Shown: piece after piece, positions 1 through 3,788 of the stretch
Layout: each line of letters starts with the position of its first letter
Numbering within the stretch: the first letter of the stretch is position 1
Source: Psychrobium sp. MM17-31
GTDB taxonomy: Bacteria > Pseudomonadota > Gammaproteobacteria > Enterobacterales > Psychrobiaceae
Length of the DNA stretch: 64,000 nt
NCBI RefSeq assembly: GCF_022347785.1
Contig: NZ_JAKRGA010000002.1
Span: forward strand, 310,001 to 374,000
Reading direction: 5' to 3'
Notes under the pieces: generated by a model
The model's input: the letters and a program-made list of their open reading frames with translations, nothing else
Databases searched by the model: none
What the model was told of the DNA's origin: nothing
Position numbers and translations under genes: made by a program

Positions 1-174
1 ACCCAAAAAGAAACCAACCCACATCATTAGGCTAAGCGCAGAAGCACCAGCGGCTAGCAAGAAAAATGGTCTGAATGCCAAACTTAGAAAGTCGTGATTA
101 AGAATCTTATCGAGCCCTTGATGCTGAGGCTTATCACTCGCTAAACGCGGATCCTGCGGTTGTAATACTGCCAT
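1..174 (-). CDS. nnrS: NnrS family membrane protein, N-terminal fragment (cut by window start)
   Basis: The reverse strand from an ATG at 174 is open to base 1 and encodes 58 residues. The stretch FRPFFLLAAG followed by a hydrophobic segment with MMWVGFF is typical of the start of NnrS proteins, polytopic haem- and copper-containing membrane proteins linked to relief of nitric oxide stress. The gene starts 2 bases after the stop of the small membrane protein upstream, so both probably share the sigma-54/NorR-controlled promoter near 494-509. The assignment rests on the N-terminal signature and on the adjacent norR. The rest of the gene lies outside the window. Confidence 0.8.
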   Translation of the reverse strand, partial: MAVLQPQDPRLASDKPQHQGLDKILNHDFLSLAFRPFFLLAAGASALSLMMWVGFFLG

Positions 175-176
175 CT

Positions 177-446
177 TTAAAAAGCCTTATGTCCTAAATT
201 AAATGCACCGACGCAACGCATAGCATAGCCAAGCTTAAAAATCGCAGCACTGATAATAGTCAATAAATGTGCTGCTACTTCTGCTGCCAAGATTAGAGAT
301 TGCTCTATGCCATAAGAAACCCAAACGGACGCCAGAAAAAAGCTCAGAGACACCAACATAATTTTGTTAGCAAACTTGATCAATCGCTTGTGTTTATCTT
401 TCAGAGCAACAACCGATTTAATAGGAATGTCGATAGCGCTAGCCAT
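177..446 (-). CDS. Small two-helix membrane protein, first gene of the NorR/sigma-54 operon
   Basis: An 89-residue protein. I take the ATG at 446 because GGAGA at 454-458 lies 7 bases upstream; an upstream in-frame start at 479 has no such site. The N-terminus is basic (KDKHKRLIKFANK) and is followed by two hydrophobic segments at about residues 30-50 and 54-80. It sits between a sigma-54 promoter and nnrS and must be co-transcribed with nnrS. I do not recognise the family with certainty; small membrane proteins annotated PpyR-like occur next to nnrS in related bacteria. A role in nitric oxide response is inferred only from its operon. Confidence 0.7.
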   Translation of the reverse strand: MASAIDIPIKSVVALKDKHKRLIKFANKIMLVSLSFFLASVWVSYGIEQSLILAAEVAAHLLTIISAAIFKLGYAMRCVGAFNLGHKAF

Positions 447-493
447 TAGGATATCTCCATAAAGTAACTTCAAATACAATTAACGCTTTAATA

Positions 494-509
494 GCAACGC
501 CAGTGCCAA
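494..509 (-). promoter_or_regulatory. Sigma-54 promoter of the small membrane protein-nnrS operon
   Basis: The reverse strand reads TTGGCACTGGCGTTGC, a full match to the -24/-12 pattern TGGCAC-N5-TTGC. It lies about 48 bases upstream of the ATG at 446 and about 50-110 bases from the NorR-type sites at 562-616, the usual arrangement for an enhancer-dependent promoter. Confidence 0.88.
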
Positions 510-561
510 CTTTTATAATCACTAATTATCAACAACTTAAATAGACAAAAACAATAATAGA

Positions 562-616
562 GTCATAATGACACTTTTAATTTAGAGTCAATATGACTAC
601 ACTGGGTCAAAATGAT
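562..616. promoter_or_regulatory. Cluster of three NorR-type operator/enhancer sites
   Basis: Three near-identical inverted repeats fit the NorR core GT-N7-AC: GTCATAATGAC at 562-572, GTCAATATGAC at 587-597, and a weaker GTCAAAATGAT at 606-616. They lie between the sigma-54 promoter (leftwards) and norR (rightwards). Three sites is also the number known upstream of E. coli norVW. The third ends 17 bases before the norR start, consistent with autoregulation. Confidence 0.8.
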
Positions 617-633
617 TTATCGAATGAACGCTA

Positions 634-2205
634 ATGCATCCAATTACCTCTGACTCATTGCTCGCCTTGTCGCTTGATTTAGCAACGAGCCTCACCACTA
701 AAGATCGCTTTAACAGATTGTTAGCGACGGTGCGAAAAACCATTACTTGCGATGCTGTAGCGCTGCTTTCATTTGATAACGACACCCTGACACCTCTTGT
801 GCAACAAGGATTAAAAAACGACGTGTTAGGTCGCCGTTTTCACATTGATGAGCACCCGCGCTTTGAAGCCATTTGCCAATCACTACATCCAGTGCGTTTT
901 AGCGCCACCAGCCCACTGCCGGATCCTTATGACGGATTATTAATTGAGCACGATGGCGATTTGCCAGTGCACGCGTGCATGGGCTTACCACTGTATTTTG
1001 ATCAACAACTTATCGGCGTTCTTACCCTTGATGCTCTCCAGCCAAACGTTTTTGACAATATAGCCAAGCGCACGCTTGAAATTATTTCGGCATTAGCTGC
1101 AGTTAGCCTCAATACCGCAATGACCTTAGACTTGCTAGAAAAGCAAGCAATGCACAACAAACAAGTTGTTGAAACACTTGCCATGCAACCGGGTAATATT
1201 AAGAGCAGTGAAATCATTGGTAATAGCTCAGCAATGATCAAACTAAACAACGAAATACGTCTTGTTGCTCCCTCGCCATTTACCGTACTCATTCAAGGGG
1301 AGACTGGCGTAGGCAAAGAGTTAGTGGCCAGCGCAATACACGCCAATTCATCACGTGCTCAAGCAGCGATAGTGCATGTAAACTGCGCTGCACTGCCGGA
1401 AAATCTAATAGAAAGTGAGTTATTTGGTCACGTTAAAGGTGCCTTTACTGGCGCAGAAAAAAACAGAGCTGGTAAGTTTTCCATTGCCAACGGCGGCACA
1501 TTATTTTTAGATGAGATTGGCGAGCTACCATTAAGTGCACAAAGCAAATTACTGCGTGTATTACAAAACAATGAGATCCAAGCCCTTGGTCAAGACAAAG
1601 TCGAAATTGTCGACGTGCGAATTATAGCTGCCACTAACCGTGACTTGGCTCTAGAAGTGGAAGACGGGCGATTTCGCGCAGACTTGTATCACCGTTTAAG
1701 CGTATTCCCAGTGAGCGTTCCGCCGCTGAGAGATCGTATTGGCGATGTTCACCTATTAGCAGGTTATTTTTGTGAAAAGTTAAAACGAAAACTAGGCTTG
1801 GCGCAAATAGCACTGAGCAGCGACTTTTTAGACGCGCTTGAACAATATCAATGGCCCGGAAATGTCAGGGAATTAGAGCATTTTATAAACCGAGCCACCT
1901 TAAAAGCCAAAGCGCAAAACAAGCCGCCATTTGCAATAAAAATCAATGCGTTAGACGCTGGTGAACTTGTCAATGAACCTATGGTTAGCACCGCAGTTCA
2001 AACTAATACGCAGACAGCGTCTGTGACAGATTTAAAACTCGCGACTAATCAATTTCAGCGTAAAATTATCCAAGAGGCGCTCACCCAGCACACTGGGAAT
2101 TGGGCAGCTAGCGCACGCACGTTAAATACCGATAGATCCAACCTGATGCGCTTGGCCAAACGCCTAGGAATAAGCGTTGAAAAGACAGTAATCAAAAGCG
2201 ACTAA
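634..2205 (+). CDS. norR: Nitric-oxide-responsive sigma-54 activator NorR
   Basis: A 523-residue bacterial enhancer-binding protein, close to the usual length. The N-terminal GAF domain (about 20-175) keeps the putative non-haem iron ligands of NorR: Arg76, Asp97, Asp100, His113 and Cys115 in the motif VHACMG. The AAA+ domain (about 195-425) has the Walker A motif GETGVGKE and the sigma-54 contact loop GAFTGA. The C-terminal helix-turn-helix contains NWAASARTLNTDRSNLMRLA. It is divergent from a sigma-54-promoted nnrS operon and has three GT-N7-AC sites just upstream. Its stop codon overlaps that of the convergent diguanylate cyclase gene. The start at 634 aligns with the E. coli NorR N-terminus although no strong ribosome binding site is visible. 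Confidence 0.95.
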   Translation: MHPITSDSLLALSLDLATSLTTKDRFNRLLATVRKTITCDAVALLSFDNDTLTPLVQQGLKNDVLGRRFHIDEHPRFEAICQSLHPVRFSATSPLPDPYDGLLIEHDGDLPVHACMGLPLYFDQQLIGVLTLDALQPNVFDNIAKRTLEIISALAAVSLNTAMTLDLLEKQAMHNKQVVETLAMQPGNIKSSEIIGNSSAMIKLNNEIRLVAPSPFTVLIQGETGVGKELVASAIHANSSRAQAAIVHVNCAALPENLIESELFGHVKGAFTGAEKNRAGKFSIANGGTLFLDEIGELPLSAQSKLLRVLQNNEIQALGQDKVEIVDVRIIAATNRDLALEVEDGRFRADLYHRLSVFPVSVPPLRDRIGDVHLLAGYFCEKLKRKLGLAQIALSSDFLDALEQYQWPGNVRELEHFINRATLKAKAQNKPPFAIKINALDAGELVNEPMVSTAVQTNTQTASVTDLKLATNQFQRKIIQEALTQHTGNWAASARTLNTDRSNLMRLAKRLGISVEKTVIKSD

Positions 2206-3788
2206 GCGGTCGCCGCGACACTGCAATTTCGCCCCTGCCCCTTGGCCTGATAAAGCGCTCGGTCGGCTTGCTTAAATAATTGATGGAAGTCATTAGCATT
2301 TGCAAGCTCAGCGACTCCTATAGAAATCGAAAGTTGAGGCAACTCAGGGAATTCTTTGGCGGACAACACACTAAATTGCTGCCTGATCCACTCCGCTTTG
2401 ACAAAACCGCTGTCGATATCAGTGTTAGGCAAGGCAATTAAGAATTCCTCACCGCCATAACGGCTGACTAGGTCTCCAACACGGCAGGCGTTTTTCATCA
2501 CCTTGGCTAAGAATTTTAAAACTTCATCACCTACCTGATGGCCAAAATCGTCGTTAATGCGTTTAAAGTTATCGACGTCTAAAATCAATAACGACAGCGC
2601 GCCAGTGTCGCGCTGTGCCATTAACACTTCGATTGATTGCTCAAAGTGACGACGATTGTGTAATCCGGTTAGTACATCCATTGCTGCTTGCTTTTGCAGC
2701 TCGTCTTTAAGTAAGGTAATTTCAGCAACTTTCTCATTGAGTGAAACATTCAAATTAATTAAATCGTATTCCAACTCTTTTTGCTCGGTAATATCGGTGG
2801 AAATACCGATAAAGCGATCGATCTCCCCTGCTTCATTCTTCAATGGAATCTTAACCGTCCAGTAATACAAAGTAGTATCTGGCAACTCGAAGGTTTCGAT
2901 ACAAGTAACCTTTTTGGCAGTTGCAAAGACTTGGCGATCGGTGCGCATGAATTCCTCGCCCTGCTTTTCACCGAGCAACTCAATGTTATTCTTGCCGAGG
3001 ATTTCATCTTCAGGTTTCTGAAACAGCTCACTAGTGCGCTTATTAATGTACTTAAAGCGATAGTCACGATCTTTAATAAAAATATAAGCGCCAGCATTAT
3101 CTAAGATAGTTGCAAGTTTTTGCTCGTTATCGAATATCTGCTTTTCTAAACGCTTTTGCTCGGTAATGTCCAGTGAAATACCTAATAGGCCATTGATAAC
3201 ACCGTCTGAGTCATATTGCGGCTTTTTAATCGATAGATAATAACGGTGCTCGTGTAGATGAGGGAGATAATTACACTCTTCTTGCTTAATTACTTTGCCT
3301 TTTTCAATTACGTCATAATCATAAATTTCGCGCAGACGTTTTCCCGACTCCTCGCCAAACAAATCACAATCTGTCTTACCAATAATCTCATCAGAGGTAA
3401 GTCCAAATAACTGGTAAACCTGCTGATTAGCATAGGTGTAGTGATAGTCCTTATCCTTGCAATAAACGTAGGCACCTAGGTTATCTAACAAACTATAGAA
3501 ATAGTCGACACACTGAACTGACTCTTCCACTAGCTCAAGAGCGATGGCCAATACTGGTCGATCTCCAATATCGACAGGAGACGACTCCATTTTAATGCTG
3601 CGGTTGTTATACAAAACAGGTGACAAATCACTAAGCGCAGGAACAAAACTCTGCTGCCAGTCTTCATTTTCGATTTCCGGATGACTTAACCCCAATAATG
3701 ACTGCGCAGCTGGGTTAACATATAGAAGTGCCAGATCCTTTTGACAAACAATAAGATAAGCTTGCTTTAGTTGCGCAAATATCTCCAT
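2202..3788 (-). CDS. PAS-PAS-PAS-GGDEF diguanylate cyclase
   Basis: A 528-residue soluble sensor. One weak PAS-like segment (about 1-80) is followed by two clear PAS/PAC domains (about 90-215 and 220-345), each ending in the typical DITEQK(R/E)LE linker. A short coiled-coil stretch follows, then a GGDEF domain from about 365. The active-site motif is GGEEF. RVGD five residues upstream fits the RxxD inhibitory site, so cyclic-di-GMP synthesis with product inhibition is expected. There is no EAL domain and no membrane segment, so the signal is probably cytoplasmic (redox, oxygen or a ligand). It converges on norR with overlapping stop codons, but functional linkage is not shown. Confidence 0.9.
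   Translation of the reverse strand: MEIFAQLKQAYLIVCQKDLALLYVNPAAQSLLGLSHPEIENEDWQQSFVPALSDLSPVLYNNRSIKMESSPVDIGDRPVLAIALELVEESVQCVDYFYSLLDNLGAYVYCKDKDYHYTYANQQVYQLFGLTSDEIIGKTDCDLFGEESGKRLREIYDYDVIEKGKVIKQEECNYLPHLHEHRYYLSIKKPQYDSDGVINGLLGISLDITEQKRLEKQIFDNEQKLATILDNAGAYIFIKDRDYRFKYINKRTSELFQKPEDEILGKNNIELLGEKQGEEFMRTDRQVFATAKKVTCIETFELPDTTLYYWTVKIPLKNEAGEIDRFIGISTDITEQKELEYDLINLNVSLNEKVAEITLLKDELQKQAAMDVLTGLHNRRHFEQSIEVLMAQRDTGALSLLILDVDNFKRINDDFGHQVGDEVLKFLAKVMKNACRVGDLVSRYGGEEFLIALPNTDIDSGFVKAEWIRQQFSVLSAKEFPELPQLSISIGVAELANANDFHQLFKQADRALYQAKGQGRNCSVAATA

Follow-up and report, generated by a model that had tools for sequence, protein, structure and literature searches.

The window, i.e., the whole stretch of 64,000 nucleotides from Psychrobium sp. 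MM17-31 that was analysed, contains near its left edge a norR gene and a divergent operon. The region that lies between them (447-633) is shared by both as a control region and is, judged by its sequence, of the canonical NorR/sigma-54 type. The features of the locus are, from left to right:

1-174, minus strand: nnrS, of which the 5′ end is in the window (full gene at 308948-310174 of contig C2, 408 aa)
177-446, minus strand: small gene of 89 aa, with its ATG at 446 and a GGAG ribosome site upstream, probably encoding a two-helix membrane protein
493-508, minus strand: sigma-54 -24/-12 element, TGGCACTGGCGTTGCT, perfect match to the element
527-539, plus strand: IHF-like site, TATCAACAACTTA, between the enhancer sites and the promoter
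562-572, plus strand: putative NorR site 1, promoter-proximal, GTCATAATGAC, exact GTCA-N3-TGAC, position conserved in relatives
587-597, plus strand: putative NorR site 2, GTCAATATGAC, exact GTCA-N3-TGAC, 25 bp from site 1, position conserved in relatives
598-603, plus strand: TACACT, possible -10 hexamer of norR suggested by the sequence, between sites 2 and 3
606-616, plus strand: putative NorR site 3, norR-proximal, GTCAAAATGAT, GT-N7-AT with one mismatch, 19 bp from site 2
634-2205, plus strand: norR, 523 aa, predicted NO-sensing sigma-54 activator with GAF domain, AAA+ domain carrying GAFTGA, and weak Fis-type HTH

The norR product reaches 738.5 bits with the NCBIfam model NF003451 (cut-off 476) and matches Sigma54_activat, the AAA lid, and GAF in Pfam; its HTH_8 match is below the Pfam cut-off (17.9 vs 22 bits). 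In E. coli NorR, the iron centre is made of R75, D96, D99, C113, and D131. By alignment, this list of residues is entirely kept in the window NorR, at R76, D97, D100, C115, and D133, and the GAFTGA loop is also present when the protein is aligned to the E. coli and Cupriavidus NorR. The position of E. coli R81 is occupied by Q82 in the window NorR and by Ala in Cupriavidus necator; a passage of PMC2941729 describes R81 as critical for the repression exerted by the GAF domain, and names R75 as well. Scanning named genomes for NorR gave one relative at 83% identity, in an uncultured gammaproteobacterial bin, and 34 other activators that do not exceed 50%. The gene for sigma-54 itself, rpoN, is present in the genome (515 bits). 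At its other end, norR is convergent with a gene for a GGDEF protein (diguanylate cyclase) with three PAS stretches (window 2202-3788, minus strand), which overlaps the end of norR by 4 bases.

The first-pass annotation had read 447-633 as a NorR/sigma-54 control region, and this reading is borne out, as the NorR model is passed, rpoN is present, and the geometry of the sites is canonical. The perfect -24/-12 element that it had announced on the reverse strand does exist, one base away from the place given (at 493-508, not 494-509). Its three GT-N7-AC repeats are correctly positioned at 562, 587, and 606 and correctly described for sites 1 and 2, but site 3 ends in AT. The spacings are 25 bp (sites 1 to 2) and 19 bp (sites 2 to 3), and the sigma-54 element is 53 bp from the nearest site. 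When the window was shuffled 300 times with its dinucleotides preserved, such a triad of sites within 70 bp never came up. The -24/-12 element by itself is within chance (2 matches in the window with one mismatch allowed vs 5.5 expected), and significance rests on the cluster of sites. The same annotation had proposed to search the rest of the genome for GTCA-N3-TGAC. Single NorR-type sites are uninformative for this purpose, with 375 GTCA-N3-TGAY sites genome-wide on both strands vs 263 for the reversed control pattern, whereas a pair of sites occurs elsewhere only once, inside a coding sequence. Indeed, the two-site pattern returned four rows in the 4.17-Mb genome (1 and 2 with reversed-pattern controls), three of which correspond to the norR locus, i.e., to one cluster read on both strands. 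The remaining pair, on contig 4, lies inside a 441-aa coding frame (a histidine kinase by eye) and was rejected. The cluster at the norR locus is the sole one of this kind found outside coding sequence in the genome.

We then place this layout in the context of the order. A search for NorR across 197 genomes of the order gave 59 matches at E ≤ 1e-150, spread over 56 genomes, and the surroundings of all 59 norR loci were taken, including the window's own (L002) and one that is cut by a contig end (L054). Two norR matches (G178:C13:34173-35690 and G143:C1:4456353-4457885) belong to open frames that, with 1085 aa, are roughly double the normal size. A pair was scored when two sites, each allowed one mismatch, were separated by 22-28 bp and located no more than 350 bp upstream of norR; by this rule, it was present in 45 of the 59 loci and absent in 14, compared with at most 2 in 200 rounds of shuffling. 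When a sigma-54 element was required in addition, with 42-65 bp between the element and the promoter-proximal site, 38 loci were retained and 21 were not, compared with at most 0 over 200 rounds; these loci are related, and the counts are not those of independent events. Site 3, the weakest point of the window's layout, is degenerate in the two nearest relatives of the window (3 and 4 mismatches), and its position holds 1 or 2 mismatches in the 16 norVW-type loci with the full layout. An IHF-like site occurs in 16 of the 38 spacers, many of these loci being closely related, vs 0.26 expected in shuffled spacers. The one at 527-539 is a lead, and it agrees with DNA looping as it operates at sigma-54 promoters.

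The same sites also face norR. The start codon of norR comes 37 positions after the end of site 2 and 18 after the end of site 3, both sites lying within 47 bp of it, and this proximity fits a negative autoregulation such as the one proposed, in a passage of PMC1274295, for the site before norR2. The hexamer TACACT (598-603) could be the -10 of norR, and TACAAT or TACTAT, which resemble it, stand after site 2 in several relatives (by eye); no good -35 hexamer was seen for it, and it is absent from the output of the promoter scan. One might thus propose, from the closeness of sites 2 and 3 to the start codon and from a -24/-12 element that alone is within chance, that the sites serve mainly for norR autorepression and that the sigma-54 element is a fortuitous match. 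We consider this very unlikely, since the pair and the element are held at a near-fixed distance in 38 of the 59 loci and in none of the shuffles, and since E. coli shows the same layout.

On the minus strand, the genes succeed one another past the left edge of the window in the order small gene, nnrS, hmp, glutathione peroxidase-like gene, and OhrR-like gene. The NnrS protein matches the Pfam family of this name with 297.8 bits (cut-off 28). The hmp gene lies just outside the window, in the same direction as nnrS; its product (395 aa from the ATG) reaches 525.3 bits with the flavohaemoglobin model NF009805 of NCBIfam (cut-off 432) and contains the Pfam domains Globin, FAD_binding_6, and NAD_binding_1, i.e., a full flavohaemoglobin. 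The gaps are of 2 bp between the small gene and nnrS, 114 bp between nnrS and hmp, and 118 bp after hmp. The first-pass annotation had stated that norVW is not the target of the control region, and we agree: the divergent genes are others, and E. coli NorV has no match in the genome, although an empty answer of this type by itself shows little; the same query does, however, locate norV with tblastn in 27 loci out of the 59. As for the target that it had named instead, a small membrane protein plus nnrS, both genes are indeed divergent from norR, but hmp follows them beyond the window edge. Its further claim, that the NO response is directed at the NnrS branch, is not supported; this reading was brought about by the edge of the window, and the full flavohaemoglobin gene that follows nnrS in the same direction corrects it. 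Since hmp has this orientation and since the 114-bp gap contains neither a NorR site (with at most one mismatch) nor a sigma-70-like site on the operon strand, we read hmp as a member of the operon. Hence, the NO response would not be confined to the NnrS branch, and hmp, which encodes the classical NO dioxygenase, would probably be under the same NorR control, presumably cotranscribed with the small gene and nnrS.

Another possibility is that NorR control extends to the small gene and nnrS but no further, and that hmp is served by a promoter within the 114-bp gap that answers to a different regulator. The length of this gap, together with a weak terminator-like hairpin in it, means that hmp might have such a promoter, and the two genes are separable in the order. 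In each of the 59 norR loci, some 4.5 kb on the divergent side were examined by tblastn and with the small-protein profile. This side carries norVW in 27 loci, hmp alone in 13, the small gene and nnrS without hmp in seven, the small gene with both nnrS and hmp in five, the small gene with hmp in two, the small gene without nnrS or hmp in one, and none of these genes in four (one of them cut by a contig end). On the other hand, these loci also show that hmp itself is often encoded divergently next to norR (20/59, with or without other genes), the hairpin is within shuffle expectation, the gap is devoid of the NorR and sigma-70-like sites mentioned above, and no NsrR was found in the genome. We therefore judge a separate promoter for hmp to be unlikely, even if it is the most serious of the alternatives considered here.

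A different regulator, NsrR or one of the FNR/DNR type, could also be imagined as the main NO control of the operon, all the more as the small gene is found near NsrR-like genes in other genomes of the order (4 of 45 loci, see below). Our search of the window's genome gave no candidate for NsrR, the sole Rrf2 protein found being of the IscR type; its score with the IscR model is above the cut-off (208.1 vs 207.55 bits), and it adjoins a gene read by eye as iscS. Moreover, no NsrR-like box with fewer than 4 mismatches occurs in window 1-900, and the best FNR-like box near the promoter has 2 and is located at position 250, inside the small gene. Control by such a regulator is, in our opinion, highly improbable, slightly more so than the use of the sites for autorepression.

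Taken as a whole, the best explanation, which we hold with great confidence, is that the region 447-633 drives a divergent NO-defence operon, small gene-nnrS-hmp, by means of NorR and sigma-54. What the DNA itself shows is which parts are present, how they are spaced, how far they are conserved, and in which order the genes stand; from this we infer the induction by NO, the binding of NorR, the cotranscription of hmp, the role of IHF, and the autorepression. In this mechanism, NO would bind the iron in the GAF domain of NorR and thereby release the AAA+ domain. Once NorR is assembled on the tandem sites (562-616), looping of the DNA, possibly with a bend made by IHF at 527-539, would bring the activator into contact with the sigma-54 RNA polymerase at 493-508, and the NorR ATPase would remodel the polymerase and open the promoter. 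The transcript would start near 483 on the minus strand and reach the ATG of the small gene at 446, and the operon would supply the small membrane protein, the haem-copper membrane protein NnrS, and the NO dioxygenase Hmp. Bound to sites 2 and 3 beside the norR start, NorR would probably also restrain its own gene. We counted against this explanation the imperfect site 3 and its degeneracy in the two nearest relatives, the 114-bp nnrS-hmp gap with its hairpin, the norR loci without the pair (14) or without the pair plus sigma-54 element (21), and the replacement of R81 by Q82.

The promoter-proximal gene is the least understood part of the operon. Its product in the window belongs to no Pfam or NCBIfam family, and with 14 aligned small proteins the best E-values were 0.0042 in Pfam and 0.006 in NCBIfam; among solved structures, no relative was found at E ≤ 1. 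It is probably a two-helix membrane protein, as pointed to by the two hydrophobic stretches of a hydropathy profile computed on one relative, not on the window's copy. Six residues (N27, H60, A67, K71, Y74, and R77 in the numbering of the window) are kept in 43 to 47 of the 48 aligned small proteins. The nearly invariant His, Lys, Tyr, and Arg, all in the second half of the protein, suggest that it may bind a cofactor or a partner, e.g., NnrS.

In the order, every one of the 12 nnrS-bearing norR loci also has the small gene, which was not found at any of the 27 loci with norVW. The small-protein profile gave 47 matches among 394 genomes of the order and, class-wide, matches in 2 of 369 genomes, both of the same order as the window. 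The class-wide search for NorR gave matches in 15 of 369 genomes, and none of 13 norR loci lying outside the order was matched by the small-protein profile. One class-wide NorR locus (L206) has the arrangement norR, hmp, a 208-aa frame (YtfE- or hemerythrin-like by eye), and nnrS, and the small protein is absent from it. We left out two of the 47 matches, G663 (E 8.6e-4, internal stop) and G647 (inside a 486-aa frame), which brings the loci to 45. In 40 of them, the small gene is near a NorR-type or NsrR-like regulator or has its own pair of NorR sites. It stands beside norR in 21 loci. Twelve small genes, all from one genus, are away from norR within the 7-10 kb taken and are preceded by two NorR-type sites 26 bp apart, and 11 of these 12 have a sigma-54-like element with at most 2 mismatches (raw counts of the site scan). 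In the named case of Vibrio sp. THAF190c, the small gene is located behind two exact sites 26 bp apart and TGGAACACCTTTTGCT, and norR is elsewhere on the same replicon. Four others have an NsrR-like gene nearby, a few genes away at most; in all four cases, no model fits this gene better than that of NsrR, although the score stays below the cut-off, and an NsrR-like box with 1 or 2 mismatches is found at two of them. In three loci of the window's genus (L010, L011, and L192), the small gene is clustered with genes for a pyridine nucleotide-disulphide oxidoreductase, a DUF1971 protein, and a convergent NorR-like activator, the families having been searched for one of the three. For five loci (L177, L186, L188, L189, and L195), neither tblastn nor the site scan revealed a connection with NO regulation; the neighbours were listed for two of them, L177 and L186. 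Finally, on a plasmid record of Vibrio campbellii (L199 5941-5957), the small gene comes after ATGCATATAAAATACAT, a perfect NsrR-type palindrome and not NorR sites; it fits exactly the NsrR box core given in a passage of PMC1274295, and 0 are expected in shuffles.

This link to NO regulators (NorR for most homologues, NsrR-like genes for some) makes the small protein a good candidate for an overlooked component of NO defence. Going one step further, its presence in all 12 nnrS-holding loci, its own site pair in 12 genomes, and its NsrR-like neighbours elsewhere argue for an undescribed family (roughly 75-120 aa, probably two-helix membrane proteins) that would serve specifically in the response of this gammaproteobacterial order to NO; we see the arguments for and against this as evenly balanced. 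A literature search combining flavohemoglobin, NnrS, and "small membrane protein" found nothing. The family is not described in passages of PMC1274295, PMC2941729, PMC3299288, PMC6768983, PMC9112911, and PMC11976125, an absence that, in excerpts, is weak evidence for its being unpublished. The new part of this system may be the small protein family.

The control region itself is a clean further example of a well-understood system and causes little surprise. The norR-norV region of E. coli is very similar, with a divergent norR, three tandem sites, and a sigma-54 element at about the same distance. In the norR-norV gap of strain K-12, GTCAATTTGAC, GTCATATCGAC, and GTCATTTTGAC (GT-N7-AC) are 21 and 24 bp apart, and the sigma-54 element, TGGCACGCAATCTGCA, lies 55 bp further on. 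Counted from the promoter, the spacings are thus 25/19 in the window vs 24/21 in E. coli, and the third site of the window is imperfect. A passage of PMC2941729 on the norR-norVW system describes its three sites as essential. The targets also differ, i.e., norVW in E. coli and small protein-nnrS-hmp in the window. The spacings of the window (19 and 25) are found upstream of hmp in P. stutzeri, where three sites are placed at -192, -173, and -148 in a passage of PMC1274295.

The action of NorR on nnrS and hmp is not new either, as it was already reported in Vibrio cholerae. Passages of PMC1274295 predict NorR control of hmp and nnrS in this species, and of nnrS in P. aeruginosa; a passage of PMC11976125, citing Stern 2012, states that V. 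cholerae NorR activates hmpA and nnrS. The window would resemble V. cholerae in having the flavohaemoglobin and nnrS under NorR (PMC1274295 and PMC11976125, in the passages concerned). However, nnrS appears in PMC1274295 as a second genomic target in V. cholerae, whereas in the window nnrS and hmp are gathered in one divergent cluster with one control region. The arrangement of the window is found again in Pseudoalteromonas xiamenensis, with norR, a hypothetical protein, NnrS, and hmpA in this order and the same divergence, but the small protein of this species is shorter (74 aa) and has diverged from that of the window.

A last comparison concerns P. aeruginosa, in which the NorR orthologue FhpR controls fhp, with ppyR and an nnrS downstream of fhp (passages of PMC9112911, PMC3299288, and PMC1274295). 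PpyR (PA2663) has two transmembrane regions, and its gene forms, downstream of fhp, an operon with that of the NnrS protein PA2662 (passages of PMC9112911 and PMC3299288). As in the window, a flavohaemoglobin gene, a gene for a protein with two transmembrane regions (probable for that of the window), and nnrS are close to each other and have a NorR-type regulator; the gene order (fhp-ppyR-PA2662) differs, however, and the small protein is likened to PpyR by its neighbourhood. We suspect from this analogy that both proteins are homologous. If so, this could explain the puzzling presence of PpyR in the NO-responsive fhp operon of Pseudomonas.
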